Virus record (IMG/VR): IMGVR_UViG_3300032278_000053
Span: 1-34,729 of that record
Source of the DNA: a virus
Direction: 5' to 3' (one strand)
Length of the DNA: 34,729 bases
Shown: piece after piece, positions 19,369 to 31,327 of the stretch
How positions within the stretch are numbered: position 1 is the stretch's first letter
How the letters are laid out: every line of letters begins with the position of its first letter
Made by a program: the position numbers and the translations under genes
Notes under the pieces: generated by a model
Told to the model about the DNA's origin: nothing
What the model saw: the letters and a program-made list of their open reading frames with translations, nothing else
Database searches by the model: none

Positions 19369-19599
19369 ATGAAAATCATTTTTCCCTTATTTTTTGCCCT
19401 GTTATCCCTGGGGGTGGGGGGGTGCGCCCGGTCAACTATCGAAAAAGGTACATTTCGCGCGACCTCAACCCGTTGGTTTTGGTCAACGGAAGGGTTTTCG
19501 GCGACTTACGACCCCAAAACCGGAATATACAGGGTGAGCCTGGGCCACACCGGCCAGGACCTTGAAAAATTAATCCAATTATTGAGGGCGGCAAAATGA
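19369..19599 (+). CDS. Lipoprotein, outer spanin candidate
   Basis: A 76-aa protein with a type II signal: MKIIFPLFFALLSLGVGG followed by Cys19 (lipobox VGGC). The mature part is short and has Arg/Trp-rich and beta-prone stretches (TRWFWSTEGFSATYDPKTGI), ending in a small helix LEKLIQLLRAAK. Outer-membrane spanins are small lipoproteins found near holin and endolysin genes, which fits, but the proline-rich character of many outer spanins is absent. It overlaps the next gene by four bases (ATGA), supporting co-expression with the lysis cassette. Confidence 0.6.
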   Translation: MKIIFPLFFALLSLGVGGCARSTIEKGTFRATSTRWFWSTEGFSATYDPKTGIYRVSLGHTGQDLEKLIQLLRAAK

Positions 19600-20027
19600 C
19601 CGAAACAAAACCAACAACGGATCAGGAACACATCACCAAATATATTTCCAGACACGTCCGGAAGGCTGACGTCGCGGCGTTTTGGGATGTCTATTCTTGG
19701 GTTTCCCAAAAATATCCAATGTTTAAATTCGATGGGGCCAGCCGTTTCCCCGATGGCCGCGGGAAGCGCGGGATGGGGTTGGTTTGGCTTGTGCATGATA
19801 TCGGATATTTTTTGGGTGGAAAACCAATTGCCCGGCGGAAAATTGACAGAATCGCAACGGATATGTTATCCCATCGGGGGCGGTGGTTTATCGCGGCGTT
19901 GGTCCTTTTTGGTTTGATGATCGGCCCCAAGTTATTCCGGAAAACGCGCCGCCGGTTTACCCACCGGACGGACGGAAAATCCTGGACAACTGAAACCCCC
20001 AAGGAAATAAAGGAAAAATTTAAATGA
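19596..20027 (+). CDS. DUF1353-like protein with membrane segment
   Basis: A 143-aa protein. The segment FDGASRFPDG, then VWLVHDIGYFLGGKPIARRK and IDRIATDML, follows the pattern of phage DUF1353 proteins (Asp-Ser/Pro motif, a hydrophobic-His-Asp-aromatic motif and a later Arg/Asp). It is extended by one membrane helix (RWFIAALVLFGLMIG) and a basic tail ending KEIKEKFK. The start ATG 19596 overlaps the lipoprotein stop and the end overlaps the endolysin start (ATGA), so the three are translationally coupled. The function of DUF1353 is unknown. Membrane anchoring beside the endolysin hints at a lysis role. Confidence 0.5.
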   Translation: MTETKPTTDQEHITKYISRHVRKADVAAFWDVYSWVSQKYPMFKFDGASRFPDGRGKRGMGLVWLVHDIGYFLGGKPIARRKIDRIATDMLSHRGRWFIAALVLFGLMIGPKLFRKTRRRFTHRTDGKSWTTETPKEIKEKFK

Positions 20028-25700: not shown

Positions 25701-27574
25701 ACATGTTTGTCCAGGGAACTTTCGCCGCGTTTCCATCATATAATTGTCACCAGATCGCATACAGCACGGGGGCGGGCCTTTTAAATCCCAACATCAGATT
25801 GGATTTTTTAATCAACGGCGCAAATCCCCAAACGGTGGACCTGGCGTTGGAACTGCCAACCCTAAACCCAACATTTACCGCCGACATTTCCAGGGTTGCG
25901 GATTGGACTGTGGAATTTGAGGACCCCCGATTCCTGGGGCGCCAGGCCCTAAATTATGGGGGCATTATTTCCAATAATTACGACATAACAACGGCGGGGG
26001 CGTCGTTTTTTACCTGGCATTTTAACCCCACCACGGGGGAAATGGTTTTCCATCCCAACCTGGCGGGCGCCCGTATTATTGCCAGGTATTTTTCAACCAC
26101 AACCCAATCATTTGGGGATTCGCCGTCCGGGGTGTCGGCCAATACCGTGGCGGCAACCGAAACGATGCGAACCAAGGCCGATATATTAACCATCCGGGAC
26201 GAAATGGGCATCATTGACACCCTGGGGGAAAACGCGTTGGAAAACGTTGATTTTTATATCCGGACCGGTGGGGTTTTGTTGCCCCCTGATTTGTCAGGCC
26301 GGGCCGTTGTGTTAAAACACCGGACCGCGGGGGACACGCCCGGGGCCTGGTCAACGCTTGTCAATGGATCGGATTATCAAGTCCATTATGCCCGCGGGCG
26401 CCTTTATGTCCACGATACCGCCGCCGCCACCATAACCGGCGCCCGGGATATTGAGGCAACCGGAGACATTTCGAACGCCGCCCCCGAAACCCCCGCGCAA
26501 TTATGCCAAAATATTGTCCGTTGTCTGGATGCCCTGGACACCGTAAAAACCAATTTATCCCTGGGGAAATATGCCACATTTGGAGTGGCTACGGAGTCAT
26601 TTCTACCAGTCGGGACTGTTCCGCGCACCGATCCGCACGACCCCGCCGGGGTTCTTTGCAATTCCCCCCTGGTTTTGGGATCTCCGGCCCCATATCTCAA
26701 AGCGTGGACGGATCTTGGCGGCGATACGGTCAATAATTTGGACAACACCGGGACCTGTGGAATTGCAGATTGGAAATATGTGACCGCGACCAACCCCCCA
26801 GGCCGGGCGCTATCCGTTGGGTGTTCCCAGGTATTTGTCCCGGGGATTGGGGTGACGGGTTTAACTGCTTTTTATATTGGGGACGTTTATTCCGTGGACC
26901 TTCCTGATTTTCTCAAGAAATTGCCCCCGGATTCCGAAATTGTATCCGCAAAAATGACGGTAAAATTTGGGGAAAATACTGGATTTTTCCGGGAAATCCG
27001 CCACAGCGTCTCCAGACAATTGGGGGCGTTGGGGTATGCCGGACTGGATAGCACATACACGCCACCAGCAGACACCCCCCGGGAATTGATAGCCACCCCA
27101 TTAATTACCTGGTCACTATTCGGCCAAAAACCTGACGGCTATTGGGTAAATTTGGGTTCGGCCGCAGAATCCCAAACTGTTGGCATTGTGCCAGGCAAAT
27201 CCCGGGTATTGGATGCCACCGCCCTGGTGGCGTTATTGCTGGGGGTAAAGGCCGCCGCATATAAAAAAATTGCCATGGTCCCGTCCAAGGTGGAAACCGG
27301 GGCGGTGAGCGAAACGGTATCATCCGTGGGACAAGTGGATAAGCATTTGATTAATACAGCGGTCGAAAGTTTCGCGGAATTTACTGTCCAACATACTTAC
27401 CAAGACCCATCAAATTCATATTATTCCTATTATTGGGAATTGGAAACATTTGATTTTATCGTGGACACCCTTGAGATTTCGGAGTTGATGGTTGAATTTA
27501 AACTCCCCGGCGGCGTTATACAACAACGCCCAATTTATGGCGGAAATTGGCCGCATTTGGACCCAATCACCTGA
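22736..27574 (+). CDS. Very large tail-tip protein with Cys-rich insert
   Basis: A 1612-aa protein, the largest in the window and in the usual size class of siphophage tip or receptor-binding proteins. ATG 22736 overlaps the upstream stop (TAATG). Beta-rich domains run throughout. A cysteine-rich insert at about residues 379-440 holds CLSRCGHC, WYCDAR and ECYDMEC, with a zinc or disulphide pattern not typical of tail proteins. Sandwich-type segments later include FDVTVDQSVANSTV and YRVSADMFVQGTFAAFPS. Near the C-terminus are paired Tyr-rich strands (NSYYSYYWELETFDFIVD). It ends at the AT-rich boundary before the early promoter. Host recognition is the likely role. Confidence 0.6.
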   Translation: MTDYATQFDTKFSLNSKLSAGFSITDDYGNRQPPLSAGLWDYDNRTRIHHATAIQALNPINGDYRQEDIHDFFAAVHSALTYLQYLVGWFAASPSYQYNGAYYSNFSTFATFEIDAQVSSVKLRLKKNGANPLNSTIYQKGGREDYHEPIDYTDTAGVFPQPGDVLIPGGNSVLQERIHARIIQVQAEASGTTFDVTVDQSVANSTVLADPAGSAPTVSIARNAAKEPDNWTEIPPGVGTFWGRQVVFEYASTDAEWDTVAHVLTLKDTGPGGTDCAIAWPMATREKPPGGTLASNINGTFKFELKTNISTYEDITASLRQYDATQGKYIWAAKTAPVSSSDHKTTIDLSGIIPATVGTVRVTYTIPDADKTAVGVHSPCLSRCGHCRLDRTGTIANVNTTTNGVGTDSRGWHWYCDARATTPALNLNRFRAAECYDMECPNFKIGDRGGPSAGHFAEIFSGMGEALRQLGSGNSSASNFIHLNIRCPSIYWLLTPPPVYSSYFGAWGLNISHYSGGYHQFIGTDADFDGHDNDRMEFSTGAQVNFADNMALLNWSTNRFPSSLFGQLRRRLPSTDAPNMQIFPDGSSAPDATNDPADNDRAWLGGRAPAPVSKLAGQRGEDLYFSTRDIPGLEGENRIQRFNRAIKRIQRDIDSDTESADPTPNAEYFEKFPASKTIGSHSSIDAVFQVRRDGTLDPGRKRVGESGLNARGYRVESLGAGLYKIHCYLGLYFSHTTATQTDIIDTFWACGNVVDLPWPYKFEASIYQATRLGTARRKATVGDVVDFPSLGSDAKFWVTAAEPAAGDDLSAVSGDEWVDQKTIGKYFDFSPWQSTGGEIIDITRVQIQFVSGSFQDHFTLANPARKFTRWEDRPQENAQAAGDLSLAFLDQDRFEAPNPAGSPINIVGITDGGAPNHPPEVQTSAPHGLPTATNESVIITESDSTPKIDGNWVAIVTGADTFVLGTVEYKSDPITSPGAAGKVYRVSADMFVQGTFAAFPSYNCHQIAYSTGAGLLNPNIRLDFLINGANPQTVDLALELPTLNPTFTADISRVADWTVEFEDPRFLGRQALNYGGIISNNYDITTAGASFFTWHFNPTTGEMVFHPNLAGARIIARYFSTTTQSFGDSPSGVSANTVAATETMRTKADILTIRDEMGIIDTLGENALENVDFYIRTGGVLLPPDLSGRAVVLKHRTAGDTPGAWSTLVNGSDYQVHYARGRLYVHDTAAATITGARDIEATGDISNAAPETPAQLCQNIVRCLDALDTVKTNLSLGKYATFGVATESFLPVGTVPRTDPHDPAGVLCNSPLVLGSPAPYLKAWTDLGGDTVNNLDNTGTCGIADWKYVTATNPPGRALSVGCSQVFVPGIGVTGLTAFYIGDVYSVDLPDFLKKLPPDSEIVSAKMTVKFGENTGFFREIRHSVSRQLGALGYAGLDSTYTPPADTPRELIATPLITWSLFGQKPDGYWVNLGSAAESQTVGIVPGKSRVLDATALVALLLGVKAAAYKKIAMVPSKVETGAVSETVSSVGQVDKHLINTAVESFAEFTVQHTYQDPSNSYYSYYWELETFDFIVDTLEISELMVEFKLPGGVIQQRPIYGGNWPHLDPIT

Positions 27575-27593
27575 TTTTATTCATTTTCTGATA

Positions 27594-27659
27594 TTTTAAA
27601 AAAAACGTTAAAAAAAGCAAATTAGGGGGTTGACAAGGCCCGGCCTGTTATGTTCTAAT
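27594..27659 (+). promoter_or_regulatory. Early-region promoter P1 with A-tract upstream element
   Basis: TTGACA at 27630-27635 and TCTAAT at 27654-27659, spacer 18, fit a sigma70-type promoter. Upstream lie two A/T tracts (27593-27604 and 27608-27617), like an UP element. The spacer holds the palindrome AGGCC-C-GGCCT. The window's base composition is otherwise GC-rich, so this AT-rich block stands out. Confidence 0.72.
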
Positions 27660-27663
27660 TATG
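27648..27663 (+). promoter_or_regulatory. Direct TTATG boxes overlapping P1 minus-ten, operator candidate
   Basis: TTATG occurs at 27648-27652 and again at 27659-27663, 11 bases apart (one helical turn), overlapping the minus-ten hexamer. The second promoter (28790) carries TTATG at the same distance from TTGACA and an inverted copy beyond it. A ribbon-helix-helix regulator encoded at 28859 is the natural candidate to bind. Confidence 0.45.
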
Positions 27664-27706
27664 CCAGGTCAAACGACCCCAACAAATCAGGACTGGAGAA
27701 AAAACC

Positions 27707-27877
27707 ATGAAACTTAAATCAACCGAAAAACTGACAAGCCGGGACGGGAAAACCCTGTTTCTTGCAAAAACTGAGGGTGGGGCGGAATTGACACTGGACG
27801 CCAAGGAACTGGACCACCTGAAGAAAACCGGACGCCTGCCTTGGGCGGACAACCTGGGTGAATTCCGGACCTGGTAA
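27707..27877 (+). CDS. 56-residue protein, first gene after P1
   Basis: Starts MKLKSTEKLTSRDGKTLFLA and ends LPWADNLGEFRTW. It is charged, with mixed Lys/Glu and no cysteine, no membrane segment and no recognised motif. It is too short for a usual gene-length threshold, but has a good leader (AGGACTGGA nine bases before ATG 27707), codon use like its neighbours and a promoter 48 bases upstream. As the first product of the early operon it is a candidate regulator or host-takeover protein; this is inferred from position only. Confidence 0.6.
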   Translation: MKLKSTEKLTSRDGKTLFLAKTEGGAELTLDAKELDHLKKTGRLPWADNLGEFRTW

Positions 27878-27935
27878 ACATTGAAGGGGAGCCGGACCCC
27901 ACAACTGGCAAAATTTGGGACTGGAGTGTGGAATA

Positions 27936-28202
27936 ATGAGGAAAGCGCAATATCACATCAAAAAAAGGACGACCCACGGAGGCCGTTCATATGTCGCACC
28001 TGGGGGGTTTACTAATTTCACCTGGCAATGGGGAAAATGGAAAACCATTGGATCATTTCCGCTTTTGGACAATGCGATTGCAAACGCGGAAAGGGTGGAG
28101 ATTGGTCTTGACGAAATCGCGATTTTTTACAGAGGCGTTAAAATTTGGGACAAATATGACGGTTTTTTGGTCCACCCATATGATGGGGGGTTGAAATCGT
28201 GA
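27936..28202 (+). CDS. Small early protein, unknown
   Basis: An 88-aa protein, basic at the start (MRKAQYHIKKRTTHGGRSY), then aromatic (FTNFTWQWGKWKTIGSF), a helix (LLDNAIANAERVEIG) and a beta end (DEIAIFYRGVKIWDKYDGFL). ATG 27936 is preceded by GGACTGGA at 27918-27925, the leader motif also found before three other early genes. The GTGA overlap with the next gene indicates coupling. No family is recognised. The compact alpha/beta look and high Trp/Tyr content suggest a small binding domain rather than a linker. Confidence 0.6.
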   Translation: MRKAQYHIKKRTTHGGRSYVAPGGFTNFTWQWGKWKTIGSFPLLDNAIANAERVEIGLDEIAIFYRGVKIWDKYDGFLVHPYDGGLKS

Positions 28203-28765
28203 AAAAATCAGACACACAACGGCGCCGGGTATATGCCGCGGAACGTACCGTTTTCCCGATGATGCGACGGACCCAGGTGGATGACCTGGGCCACTGGCGG
28301 GCCTACGTTGACAAAATCGCGGGGTCCGCCTGGTGGAAACGCCGGTCCATAATCCGGAGCGTTTTAATTCACCCCAAACATTCAGGCAGCGCCACCGCCC
28401 GCCATTTCTGGAATACAGAAACCACTCTGTATATAACGGTTGATGGCGGTGGATTGTCGCCCGCGGGCGGATTGATCCGCCTTCCGGGATGGGCCATGAA
28501 TCAATGGGTTGTTATCCACGAAATGGCGCACATCCTGGCGCCGGACGGGGAACGACATGGGCGCCTGTTTTGCCGGGCATACCTGGCCCTGGTGGACCGC
28601 CAGTTGGGCAAGGACCAGGGGGACCTGTTGCGGAAATCGTTTAAGGCCCACCGGGTCAAATACTCCAAACCACATTCCATTGACGCCACGCGGCGCGCGG
28701 AACTTGAGGCCCGCGGGGCGGCCTTGGGAAAAAAATATTTAGGGAACCTGAAAAATCAACGATAA
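28199..28765 (+). CDS. HExxH zinc metallopeptidase-like protein
   Basis: A 188-aa protein starting at GTG 28199, eight bases after a G-run. The active-site motif is HEMAH at 107-111 with a downstream His120 in APDGERHGRLF, a gluzincin- or metzincin-like HExxH plus distal His arrangement. The motif sequence resembles the small TIGR04338-type putative metallohydrolase family. The N-terminus is basic (KKSDTQRRRVYAAERTVFPM) and the C-terminus is rich in Arg/Lys. No signal peptide, so it would act in the cytoplasm. It lies in a block of early unknown genes upstream of the RHH regulator. Substrate is unknown. Confidence 0.65.
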   Translation: MKKSDTQRRRVYAAERTVFPMMRRTQVDDLGHWRAYVDKIAGSAWWKRRSIIRSVLIHPKHSGSATARHFWNTETTLYITVDGGGLSPAGGLIRLPGWAMNQWVVIHEMAHILAPDGERHGRLFCRAYLALVDRQLGKDQGDLLRKSFKAHRVKYSKPHSIDATRRAELEARGAALGKKYLGNLKNQR

Positions 28766-28789
28766 AGAATACAAACGGCACCCCAGGGG

Positions 28790-28819
28790 TTGACAGTTGG
28801 GCCGCTATTATGAACTATT
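28790..28819 (+). promoter_or_regulatory. Promoter P2 upstream of the RHH gene
   Basis: TTGACA at 28790-28795 is preceded by GGGG exactly as at P1. The minus-ten is weaker; ACTATT at 28814-28819 (spacer 18) is the positional counterpart of TCTAAT in P1. The shared layout is GGGGTTGACA, 12 bases, TTATG. Confidence 0.55.
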
Positions 28820-28825
28820 ACATAA
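28808..28825 (+). promoter_or_regulatory. Inverted TTATG/CATAA palindrome at P2, operator candidate
   Basis: TTATG at 28808-28812 and CATAA at 28821-28825 form an inverted pair separated by eight bases, with further symmetric matches between them (14 of 18 positions). It overlaps the minus-ten region and the likely transcription start. It is 34 bases upstream of the RHH gene, as expected for autoregulation. Confidence 0.5.
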
Positions 28826-28858
28826 CGCGGGCAAGTTTCAGGGAAAGGGGGGGTAAAA

Positions 28859-29050
28859 ATGACCAACAACCGGGGGGGAATATTCCGGATGGGCGCATCA
28901 ATGCCCAAAGACCTGTATGACGAAATGGGCGCAACGGTCCAGGCTGAAAATCTGGAATATAAAGGGGTTTCCCACTTTGTCCAATTGGCGGTCCGGGAAA
29001 AATTGGACAGGATCATCCGGAGAAACAAAAACCGTGAGGGCAGGGGATGA
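28859..29050 (+). CDS. Ribbon-helix-helix (CopG/Arc-like) regulator
   Basis: A 63-aa protein with a typical RHH layout: a short beta strand (GIFRMGASMP), helix 1 (KDLYDEMGATVQAENLE), a turn (YKGVS) and helix 2 (HFVQLAVREKLDRIIRRNK). RHH dimers bind short direct or inverted repeats through the strand. GGGGGGG before ATG 28859 is a strong ribosome site. The gene has its own promoter with a palindrome, and the upstream early promoter carries the same TTATG element, so it may repress both. The next gene overlaps it by four bases. Confidence 0.72.
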   Translation: MTNNRGGIFRMGASMPKDLYDEMGATVQAENLEYKGVSHFVQLAVREKLDRIIRRNKNREGRG

Positions 29051-29325
29051 AAAAAAAGACACACGCGGAAACCATGGAAGGGATAGCGCTGGACCGTGGC
29101 GCGGGCGCCCCGGCGCCGGTCGCTGGCGTCGTTATCCCCTGGACCGTCCATCCGGTTTATGTCTGGACCCCGTCGGCCGCGTCCGGCCAGGTTGTCCAGG
29201 ATGGAATGGTCCGCCCCATGGATGCCGGGGACAAAACAGCGCTGGCCCAGGCGTTGGCGGGATATGGCCCCGCAATAATGGACCCGATGATTTTGACGAC
29301 CCGGGGAGAATCGCCCCGGGACTAA
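29047..29325 (+). CDS. Small Pro/Ala-rich protein, unknown
   Basis: A 92-aa protein, ATG 29047 overlapping the RHH stop (ATGA) with a GAGGGCAGGGG site. It starts with a basic helix (KKKTHAETMEGIALD), continues with PAPVAGVVIPWTVHPVYVWT, probably beta, and ends with a Met-rich stretch (YGPAIMDPMILTTRGESPRD). There is no motif I recognise. Being translationally coupled to the RHH gene, it may belong with that regulator or simply share its transcript. The stop codon lies in the conserved leader motif at 29319-29343. Confidence 0.55.
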   Translation: MKKKTHAETMEGIALDRGAGAPAPVAGVVIPWTVHPVYVWTPSAASGQVVQDGMVRPMDAGDKTALAQALAGYGPAIMDPMILTTRGESPRD

Positions 29326-29343
29326 TTACAGGAAAGGACTGGA
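29319..29343 (+). repeat. Conserved leader motif, copy A
   Basis: GGACTAATTA at 29319-29328 followed after seven bases by GGACTGGA at 29336-29343, five bases before ATG 29349. The same two elements in the same order occur at 31300-31322; GGACTGGA alone also lies before two genes near 27690 and 27918. Confidence 0.6.
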
Positions 29344-29348
29344 AAAAC

Positions 29349-29474
29349 ATGAACGGATCTAATGGCCGCGGATATGGCGGCCACATTTGGACCATGGCGC
29401 CCAGGCGCAACCCTGGGGGAAACGTCCAGCGGATAACCCGTTGGATTATCAATTTATTCAAGGGGTGGAAATAA
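29349..29474 (+). CDS. 41-residue glycine-rich basic peptide
   Basis: A 41-aa product (MNGSNGRGYGGHIWTMAPRR and on, ending INLFKGWK). ATG 29349 has a good ribosome site (AAAGGACTGG) and the stop overlaps the recT start (TAATG), which argues for a real coupled gene. The first half is Gly-rich and basic, and the last 16 residues form an amphipathic helix (RITRWIINLFKGW). It could be a small binding partner or a translational leader for recT. No family is recognised. Confidence 0.5.
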   Translation: MNGSNGRGYGGHIWTMAPRRNPGGNVQRITRWIINLFKGWK

Positions 29475-30553
29475 TGGATAAAGAAAACGAAACGACAACC
29501 ACAGCCCCCCCGGCGCCGTTGCCGGATTTCGGGGAGATTGTCCCCCTGGGGGATTCATCCGGCGGGGATTTATCCGTCCAGGGTGGTGGGGATTATCGCG
29601 CCCTGGAGTCCTGGTTAAACCCGACTATATTTGACCAATTACAACGGGCCGCCAAGGTTTTGGCCGCCGCGGAATTCCTGCCGCCGACATATAAGGGCAA
29701 ATTTCCGGAGATATTTGTGGGTTTACAATCCGCCTATCGTTTGCGAATTGATCCAATGGCATTTCTCCAAAATACCTATGTGGTGCCAGGAACGTCCAAG
29801 GTGGGAATGGAGGGGAAGCTGGTAATTGCCCTGGTTTCCCGTTCAACACGGATAAGAAATGGGACATTGGATTGGAAATTTTCCGGCGAAAAATTCACCC
29901 CTGATTATTGTTGCGTGTGTTCAGGGATCGAAAAAAACACCGGGACCCCCTTGGAAATGAAAATAGATTGGGCAACCGTCCAGGCCAATGGGTGGGACGC
30001 AGAGAAAAAACGCAAGGACGGGGGACGCGTCATTCCATCCAAATGGCGCCAATTGCCCGAAATGATGCTGAGATACAGGACCGCCAGTTGGTGGGCGCGG
30101 GCATATGACCCCGCCTGTTTAATGGGGTTTAGTGACGTTGAGGAAGTGCAAGAAATCGCCAGGGAAAACGACTTGGGGGACTTGGGGCCGTTGACAGTCC
30201 CCCGGCGAATATCGGACCCCGTGGACCCTGGTGACCCCAAGAAACCACCAGGGGCGCCCGTGGATGCAAAAACAGACCCGGACCCACCCCTGGACCCGGA
30301 CCCGGAACTGGACGCCGTGGCGGCCCCTAAACCGCCCAGGGCGCCAGCCGTCGAAACCACAACGGAAAAGGTTGGCCAACGCCTGGCGGCGCTTGGATTT
30401 TTGGACCCATCGGGGGCGCCAGATTTCGCCATGTTTTTCCACTGGACCCGTTCCCTATTCGGGAGGGGTACGGTGCAGGGTTTGACGGATAAACAAATCA
30501 ACGATATTTTTAAACATCTAAAATCTGAGAGGGAGAAATTGATCGTAAATTGA
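29474..30553 (+). CDS. recT: RecT-family single-strand annealing protein
   Basis: A 359-aa recombinase that would anneal single-stranded DNA after end resection. Characteristic RecT segments are FPEIFVGLQSAYRLRIDPMA, TYVVPGTSKVGMEGKLVIAL, a later KIDWATVQANGWDAE and the conserved PEMMLRYRTASWWARAY. Residues 247-294 are a Pro/Asp-rich linker (PDPPLDPDPELDAV and neighbours), followed by a separate helical C-terminal domain (EKVGQRLAALGFLDPSG to the end), which may mediate protein contacts. ATG 29474 has AGGGGTGG before it and overlaps the preceding small gene. It is followed by a nested inverted repeat and then the nuclease gene, so the two form a Red/RecET-like pair. Confidence 0.9.
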   Translation: MDKENETTTTAPPAPLPDFGEIVPLGDSSGGDLSVQGGGDYRALESWLNPTIFDQLQRAAKVLAAAEFLPPTYKGKFPEIFVGLQSAYRLRIDPMAFLQNTYVVPGTSKVGMEGKLVIALVSRSTRIRNGTLDWKFSGEKFTPDYCCVCSGIEKNTGTPLEMKIDWATVQANGWDAEKKRKDGGRVIPSKWRQLPEMMLRYRTASWWARAYDPACLMGFSDVEEVQEIARENDLGDLGPLTVPRRISDPVDPGDPKKPPGAPVDAKTDPDPPLDPDPELDAVAAPKPPRAPAVETTTEKVGQRLAALGFLDPSGAPDFAMFFHWTRSLFGRGTVQGLTDKQINDIFKHLKSEREKLIVN

Positions 30554-30558
30554 CGAAC

Positions 30559-30632
30559 GCGCCCGGGGTGCATTCCCGCGGACAAACCCGCGGAAATGTA
30601 TAATAAATGCCAACGACCACCACCCCGGGCGC
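30559..30632 (+). repeat. Nested inverted repeat between recT and nuclease gene
   Basis: The outer arms are a perfect 12-bp pair: GCGCCCGGGGTG at 30559-30570 and CACCCCGGGCGC at 30621-30632. Inside, CATTCCCGCGG (30571-30581) pairs with CCGCGGAAATG (30588-30598) with one mismatch. TATAAT at 30599-30604 follows the inner hairpin. The inner right arm contains an in-frame ATG (30596) of the nuclease gene, so the structure could control its translation, act as an attenuator or be a protein-binding site. Confidence 0.65.
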
Positions 30633-30658
30633 CCAATTTATATCAATTAGCCACTATA

Positions 30659-31234
30659 ATGGGCCTGGAATTTGACCCCGTTGGTCATACGTACCGGATG
30701 GATGGCCAAACCATTCCGTCCGTTACCGGGATTTTGAAGCGCCGCGGATTGGTCCCTGGCGCCGAATTTTTCACGGATTCAGCCCGCGCCCGCGGAACCG
30801 CCGTCCATCAGGCCATCCATTATCATTTAAGCGGTGATTTGGACTGGAATTCCGTGGATTTGCGCCTGGCTGGATATCTTGATGGGTTCAAAAAATTCCA
30901 GAATGATATGATTAAAAAGGTAATTGATGCGGAATTGGCCCTGGGTCATCCAGATTTATTTTACGCCGGGACGTTGGACCTTTTGGCCGTGGACAAATGC
31001 GGGGAAATTGTGTTGGTTGATTTCAAAACCGGCCCATATTCCCCCCAGTATGAATTACAATTGGCAGCATATGACATGCTGGCCGAATCGGCGCGGTCGA
31101 TAATCTGCCGCCATGCCTGGGCCGTCATGCTGACCAAAACAGGAAAATATAAAATTCACAGGGTGGAGGATTTGACAGACGCCCGGCGTAAGTGGTGTAA
31201 CGCCCTGGAATTGTCCAGGCACATAGGAGAATAA
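30659..31234 (+). CDS. PD-(D/E)XK exonuclease, RecT partner
   Basis: A 191-aa nuclease from ATG 30659 (a start at ATG 30596 would add a Pro-rich stretch that looks unlike the family, and would lie in the hairpin arm). The fold is read from DGQTIPSVTGIL, then RARGTAVHQAIHYHL, then the active site: GTLDLL with Asp107, VLVDFKTG with Asp121-x-Lys123, and QLAAY with Gln134 and Tyr138. This is the PD-(D/E)XK (RecB/Cas4-like) exonuclease set-up, so it would resect DNA ends for RecT. No ribosome site precedes either start, suggesting coupling or structural control. It is followed by a terminator. Confidence 0.82.
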   Translation: MGLEFDPVGHTYRMDGQTIPSVTGILKRRGLVPGAEFFTDSARARGTAVHQAIHYHLSGDLDWNSVDLRLAGYLDGFKKFQNDMIKKVIDAELALGHPDLFYAGTLDLLAVDKCGEIVLVDFKTGPYSPQYELQLAAYDMLAESARSIICRHAWAVMLTKTGKYKIHRVEDLTDARRKWCNALELSRHIGE

Positions 31235-31268
31235 CAGGTTTAAACGAATCCATGGGAAACCTGTTTTT
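31233..31268 (+). terminator. Intrinsic terminator after the exonuclease gene
   Basis: AACAGGTTT at 31233-31241 pairs perfectly with AAACCTGTT at 31257-31265; a TTTTT run spans 31264-31268. The loop is 15 bases. It overlaps the stop codon of the nuclease gene. Confidence 0.7.
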
Positions 31269-31279
31269 GGGATAATATC

Positions 31280-31298
31280 GACAGGGGCCAACCCTGTC
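31280..31298 (+). promoter_or_regulatory. Short palindromic stem-loop, operator or leader hairpin
   Basis: GACAGGG (31280-31286) and CCCTGTC (31292-31298) form a perfect 7-bp inverted repeat around GCCAA. It lies after a GATAAT minus-ten-like hexamer (31271-31276) and just before the second copy of the leader motif. It may control the following gene. Confidence 0.45.
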
Positions 31299-31299
31299 C

Positions 31300-31322
31300 G
31301 GACTAATTAAAAAAGGACTGGA
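31300..31322 (+). repeat. Conserved leader motif, copy B
   Basis: GGACTAATTA at 31300-31309 and GGACTGGA at 31315-31322, five bases before ATG 31328. It matches copy A at 29319-29343 except for the spacer (five bases here, seven there). Confidence 0.6.
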
Positions 31323-31327
31323 CGATT

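Follow-up and report, generated by a model that had tools for sequence, protein, structure and literature searches.

Two probable extended -10 promoters of one design at the head of early gene groups in the virus record IMGVR_UViG_3300032278_000053

Two promoter-like sites, here named P1 and P2, are present in the IMG/VR virus record IMGVR_UViG_3300032278_000053, whose full 34,729 bases were analysed and are called the window below, and we consider it likely, with a probability of roughly 0.8, that both are sigma-70-type extended -10 promoters for early genes, read by the host RNA polymerase. Both carry the word TTATG at a fixed distance after the -35 hexamer, and an earlier note on this DNA had taken this word as an operator common to both promoters and bound by the product of a neighbouring ribbon-helix-helix (RHH) gene. 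That part of the claim is not supported, given that the first TTATG stands at the extended -10 position and that the second boxes, which would complete the operator, differ between the two promoters in orientation and spacing.

The motif GGGGTTGACA-N12-TTATG has exactly two copies in the window, at 27626-27652 (P1) and 28786-28812 (P2), the sites that the earlier note had described, and mismatch-free TTGACA-N12-TTATG is likewise found only there (27630-27652 and 28790-28812). GGGG directly precedes TTGACA at both sites, and only 2 of the 28 plus-strand TTGACA hexamers of the whole window, those of P1 and P2, have TTATG 12 bases on. Exact matches are expected 0.015 times per window, and two matches occurred in 0 of 400 simulated windows with the dinucleotide make-up of the real one; as a promoter-like pair, P1 and P2 are well beyond chance. 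Compared segment by segment, they agree in 4/4 bases of GGGG, 6/6 of the -35, 2/12 of the N12 and 5/5 of TTATG, and past TTATG in 4/7 over the two bases plus hexamer and in 8/31 over the 31 bases downstream; their likeness is one of promoter elements plus GGGG, and it ends at the -10.

The window starts with terminase, portal and head protease/major head protein genes and ends with RecT-like, exonuclease, Holliday-junction resolvase and O-like replication genes. P1 lies within the gap 27575-27706 and P2 within the gap 28766-28858 (gene limits by our own reading), both of them gaps where early gene groups begin, and these positions, together with the shared elements, support the earlier idea of two promoters of one design heading such groups. 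The first gene after P1 encodes 56 aa of no assigned family (27707-27877), and the last before P2, among the early genes, encodes a HEXXH metallohydrolase-like protein of 188 aa (28199-28765; TIGR04338, E 2.1e-12, below the cut-off). Downstream of P2 come the gene of a 63-aa protein (28859-29050), discussed below, that of a RecT-like ssDNA annealing protein (29474-30553; phrog_561, E 2.2e-40) and that of an exonuclease of the PD-(D/E)XK type (30596-31234; phrog_298, E 4.5e-29; PF12705), and all of these features, like P1 and P2 themselves, are on the plus strand.

Both sites have the layout expected of an 18-bp spacer, TTGACA-N12-T-TATG-n-hexamer, in which TATG begins 13 bases after the -35 and TG falls one base before the hexamer (TATG-T-TCTAAT at P1, TATG-A-ACTATT at P2), and 18 bp is an allowed spacer length (16-18 or more). 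At P1, an A-rich tract (27599-27624), which may act like an UP element and gives 74% A+T in the 35 bases before TTGACA, is followed by GGGG and the -35 (27626-27635, with TTGACA at 27630-27635), TTATG (27648-27652) and the -10 TCTAAT (27654-27659). At P2 the preceding 35 bases have 51% A+T, and GGGG with the -35 (28786-28795, TTGACA at 28790-28795) is followed by TTATG (28808-28812) and the weak -10 ACTATT (28814-28819), which has no A at -11. The -35 matches TTGACA in 6/6 positions at both sites and the -10 matches TATAAT in 5/6 at P1 and 3/6 at P2, counted against the sigma-70 consensus. PMC2613000 describes a tendency of TGn promoters towards spacers of at least 18, with three or fewer -10 matches in 38% of them, gives TRTG as the extended -10 motif of gram-positive bacteria, and recognises a -35/TGn class whose -10 is poor, in which we place P2. 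P2 resembles the -35/TGn sigma-70 promoters gapAP1 and T4 Pminor of the same source in its good -35, its TG just before a weak -10 and its long spacer, whereas P1 shares the layout but has a better -10 and the A-rich upstream tract; GGGG before the -35 sets P1 and P2 apart from those two.

The register of TTATG was examined in unrelated phage DNA by scanning viral_contigs for GGGGTTGACA-N12-TTATG with no -10 demanded, which gave at least 119 stretches; 118 of these were usable (one site lay too close to an end), and merging near-duplicates at 75% identity over 80 bases left 66 non-redundant sites among the matches listed, 57 outside long ORFs and 9 inside. Among these listed matches, spacer 17 shows a hexamer agreeing with TATAAT in at least 5/6 positions in 12/66 and spacer 18 in 16/66, making 28/66 at one register or the other and leaving 38/66 with none, while at none of the 17 further offsets in the table does the count exceed 4 of the 66. 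A control scan with the scrambled word TATTG gave at least 120 stretches, a total not comparable with that of TTATG, and 37 non-redundant sites among the matches listed, with the hexamer at spacer 17 in 12/37 and at spacer 18 in 1/37; comparison of the two sets, as listed, gives p=0.14 for spacer 17 but p=0.005 for spacer 18. In unrelated phages, TTATG at this distance therefore accompanies extended -10 promoters with an 18-bp spacer. The TATTG sites often look like promoters too, of the 17-bp kind, and therefore TTGACA carries much of the signal. The layout of P1, TTGACA-N12-TTATG-A-TCTAAT, recurs in two viral contigs similar to each other (L277 and L279), where it precedes an ATPase-like gene (Walker A motif, by our reading) and has no second box in the 20 bases after the site; behind the third match of the long pattern (L278) no ATPase-like gene follows closely. 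TTATG-nn-CTA, common within the window to P1 and P2 only, was considered as an element of its own and rejected, since GTTGACA-N12-TTATG-nn-CTA[AT]T has only 3 matches in viral_contigs and the extension is therefore not a widespread motif.

In the reading that we prefer, the host RNA polymerase would start the early genes from both sites, with TTGACA as the -35 and TTATG as the holder of a TATGn extended -10 at a distance fixed by the 18-bp spacer; if the first TTATG is the extended -10, then the fixed 12 bases reflect polymerase geometry and not operator design. P1 would add its upstream tract and good -10 to the -35/TGn elements, in the layout UP/-35/TGn/-10, and would drive the group 27707-28765, whereas P2, with its weak -10, would rely on the -35 plus TGn and would drive the RHH-like gene, RecT and the exonuclease. 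Start sites would lie at about 27666 and 28826, and we infer these as well as promoter activity, the kind of sigma factor and the extent of each operon; the sequence elements, their uniqueness and their register in unrelated phage sites are direct observations. Some observations do not fit so easily: GGGG, which begins at 1.5% of positions, is no sigma-70 element and does not follow from the promoter reading; a simple promoter scan of the window listed neither P1 nor P2; the -10 of P2 is poor and has no A at -11; 38 of the 66 listed phage sites have no good hexamer at either spacer; and both second boxes occupy positions at which a bound repressor would obstruct RNA polymerase, which counts against plain promoters.

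These second boxes were correctly seen by the earlier note, and each arrangement has one copy in the window. P1 has TTATG-N6-TTATG (27648-27663), the second box (27659-27663) being direct, 11 bases start to start, and beginning on the final base of the -10; P2 has TTATG-N8-CATAA (28808-28825), with CATAA (28821-28825) inverted, 13 bases start to start, downstream of the -10 but short of the likely start site, and ending 33 bases before the start of the 63-aa ORF at 28859. Neither half-site spacing nor orientation is constant across the two promoters. According to PMC2812701, the documented operator of the RHH repressor RelB is strict on spacing, two bases added between its half-sites causing a 45-fold derepression, in contrast with the 11 versus 13 bases of the claimed TTATG operator. 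TTATG or CATAA is held by 3.8% of the 20-base stretches of the window, a repeated 5-mer, direct or inverted, by 72% of its 40-base stretches, and a second TTATG/CATAA follows within 20 bases of the first in 9/66 of the unrelated phage promoters among the matches listed (in 6 cases it adjoins the first directly, in 3 it lies at 11-12 bases). Two second boxes by chance would thus have a probability of about 0.1% at the window rate or about 2% at the phage-promoter rate among the matches listed, figures which are post hoc and do not allow for the many words, orientations and spacings that could have been chosen. The second boxes are far less beyond chance than the promoter pair; their co-occurrence is suggestive at most, and they are most likely due to chance.

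The neighbour that the earlier note called an RHH gene is probably one, on evidence that is mixed. In favour are a match of residues 2-55 to the NCBIfam NikR profile (E 0.0062, falling far short of the cut-off), two helices (17-35 and 39-60) that a single-chain model made without an alignment predicts with low confidence (pLDDT 68.5), and G-V-S between these two helices, a G-x-S/T/N turn being named for RHH proteins in PMC2812701. On the other side, the single-chain model has no strand, a Pfam search of the protein gave no RHH_1 match even at E 10, a genome search with the NikR family gave no match, fold searches with the low-confidence model returned no match, and no relative by sequence was found among solved structures. 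Relatives of the gene were also absent from viral_contigs, phages, genome_contigs and 21 related records, and plasmids gave one insignificant match (E 0.2). No close relative of the window was found either: megablast of 26500-30000 against phages gave no close relative, and RecT has remote phage relatives only, with none in viral contigs, genome contigs or the 21 related records. The terminase has relatives at 21 loci (32-46% identity) and the head protein at 10 loci (38-42%), two of which are contigs already found through the terminase; RHH_1 is matched in 0/29 of the distinct terminase/head-protein relative records, and the P1/P2 motif has a one-mismatch copy in 3/21 and an exact copy in 0/21 of the terminase-relative records. 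Most of the relative records are fragments, and the absence of the RHH gene and of RecT is therefore weak evidence.

Small RHH regulators often control their own promoters, Arc of phage P22 being an autorepressed example; the P2 locus is like that of Arc in having a small probable RHH gene directly behind a promoter with short repeated words near the -10, and differs in that the repeats of P1 and P2 are unlike in orientation and spacing and the first of them is explained by the promoter. The same likenesses and differences are found with the autorepressed RHH operon relBE (PMC2812701), and a literature search on autoregulation of phage early promoters by RHH proteins returned no papers. By analogy, the 63-aa protein may well act on P2 and could regulate its own gene. 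It is conceivable, if clearly second to the plain promoter reading, that the RHH protein represses P2 only, through a sequence other than TTATG, with P1 not among its targets; the imperfect dyad around the -10 and the region between start site and ATG are examples of candidate sites. P2 does lie directly upstream of the gene, and such control is common in this class of regulators, but no operator candidate stands out, the sole other inverted repeat of at least 7 bases in 28740-28870 having arms 82 bases apart.

We think it unlikely that the protein binds TTATG pairs at both P1 and P2, repressing its own gene and the early operon. The gene begins right after P2, its product is probably an RHH protein of a kind often autoregulatory, and a second TTATG or CATAA stands between -10 and start at both promoters with the low chance figures given above; against this, the first TTATG is already explained as an extended -10, the second boxes are unlike each other, those figures are post hoc, and the searches for relatives of the gene found none apart from the insignificant plasmid match. 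A variant, in which the 63-aa protein would read the extended -10 word TTATG plus another copy, direct or inverted, at the start site, the core element itself thereby being the operator, appears more doubtful still; if true, P1 and P2 would be shut off together once the protein accumulates.

In many of the phage promoters picked with GGGGTTGACA, the loop of a G+C hairpin contains the -35, and the T-run behind the hairpin forms the promoter spacer. Among the matches listed, a stem above the set score is present at 36/66 TTATG sites, against a mean of 12.0 and a maximum of 18 in 50 shuffles, and a stem with a T tail at 25/66; for the TATTG control the listed matches give 21/37 and 14/37. One overlap type, a GGGG-TTGACA-CCCC hairpin with the -35 in its loop, a T-run spacer and then the -10, is seen in the viral contigs L041, L044, L047, L050, L054, L072, L150, L167 and others, with further copies away from the bait site in L050 and L150. 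Outside the bait sites, TTGACA falls in the loop region of 6/85 and 11/92 terminators of these contigs, many of these matches lying near copies of each other, and in 0/6 terminators of the terminase/head-protein relatives. Such overlaps would, if true, terminate one transcript and initiate the following one; the term terminator-promoter occurs in PMC11347151 and PMC6978380. Neither P1 nor P2 is a clear case, their stem scores being 9 and 6 against a cut-off of 10 and their RNA folding no more stably than shuffled sequence (z -1.14 and 0.13), and the two Rfam matches are at chance level and away from both sites. Least probable of all is that an additional factor binds the shared GGGGTTGACA, or that this sequence is what remains of a terminator-promoter overlap like those of other phages, its GGGG pairing with CCCC in the spacer: GGGG is common to both sites beyond the sigma-70 consensus, a weak terminator-like stem is listed at 27627-27646 and such stems are frequent in other phages, but the scores and folds just given speak against it.

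Other elements of the window deserve mention. At 31230-31276 a terminator-like hairpin, AATAACAGGTTT/AAACCTGTTTTT, which folds no better than shuffles (z -0.75), has a T-run leading straight into TGG-GATAAT (31268-31276), possibly an extended -10 promoter, without a good -35, for the genes from 31328. One leader is present in two copies, at 29300-29349 and 31280-31327, each made of a G+C hairpin, GGACTAATTA, 4-6 bases, AGGACTGG and a start codon, and in either copy the fold is more stable than in shuffled sequence (z -2.47 and -2.03); AGGACTGG also precedes the gene at 27707. Inside the ORF 19596-20027, upstream of an endolysin-like gene at 20024, TTGACA-N13-TATG-T-TATCCC (19843-19872) may be an internal extended -10 promoter.

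In summary, a word at a fixed distance after the -35 can pass for an operator while being an extended -10, and a register test on unrelated phage DNA tells the one from the other. For this phage, its likely early promoters are now named, and if the 63-aa gene acts at P1 or P2, it would be the only candidate regulator seen among the genes examined.
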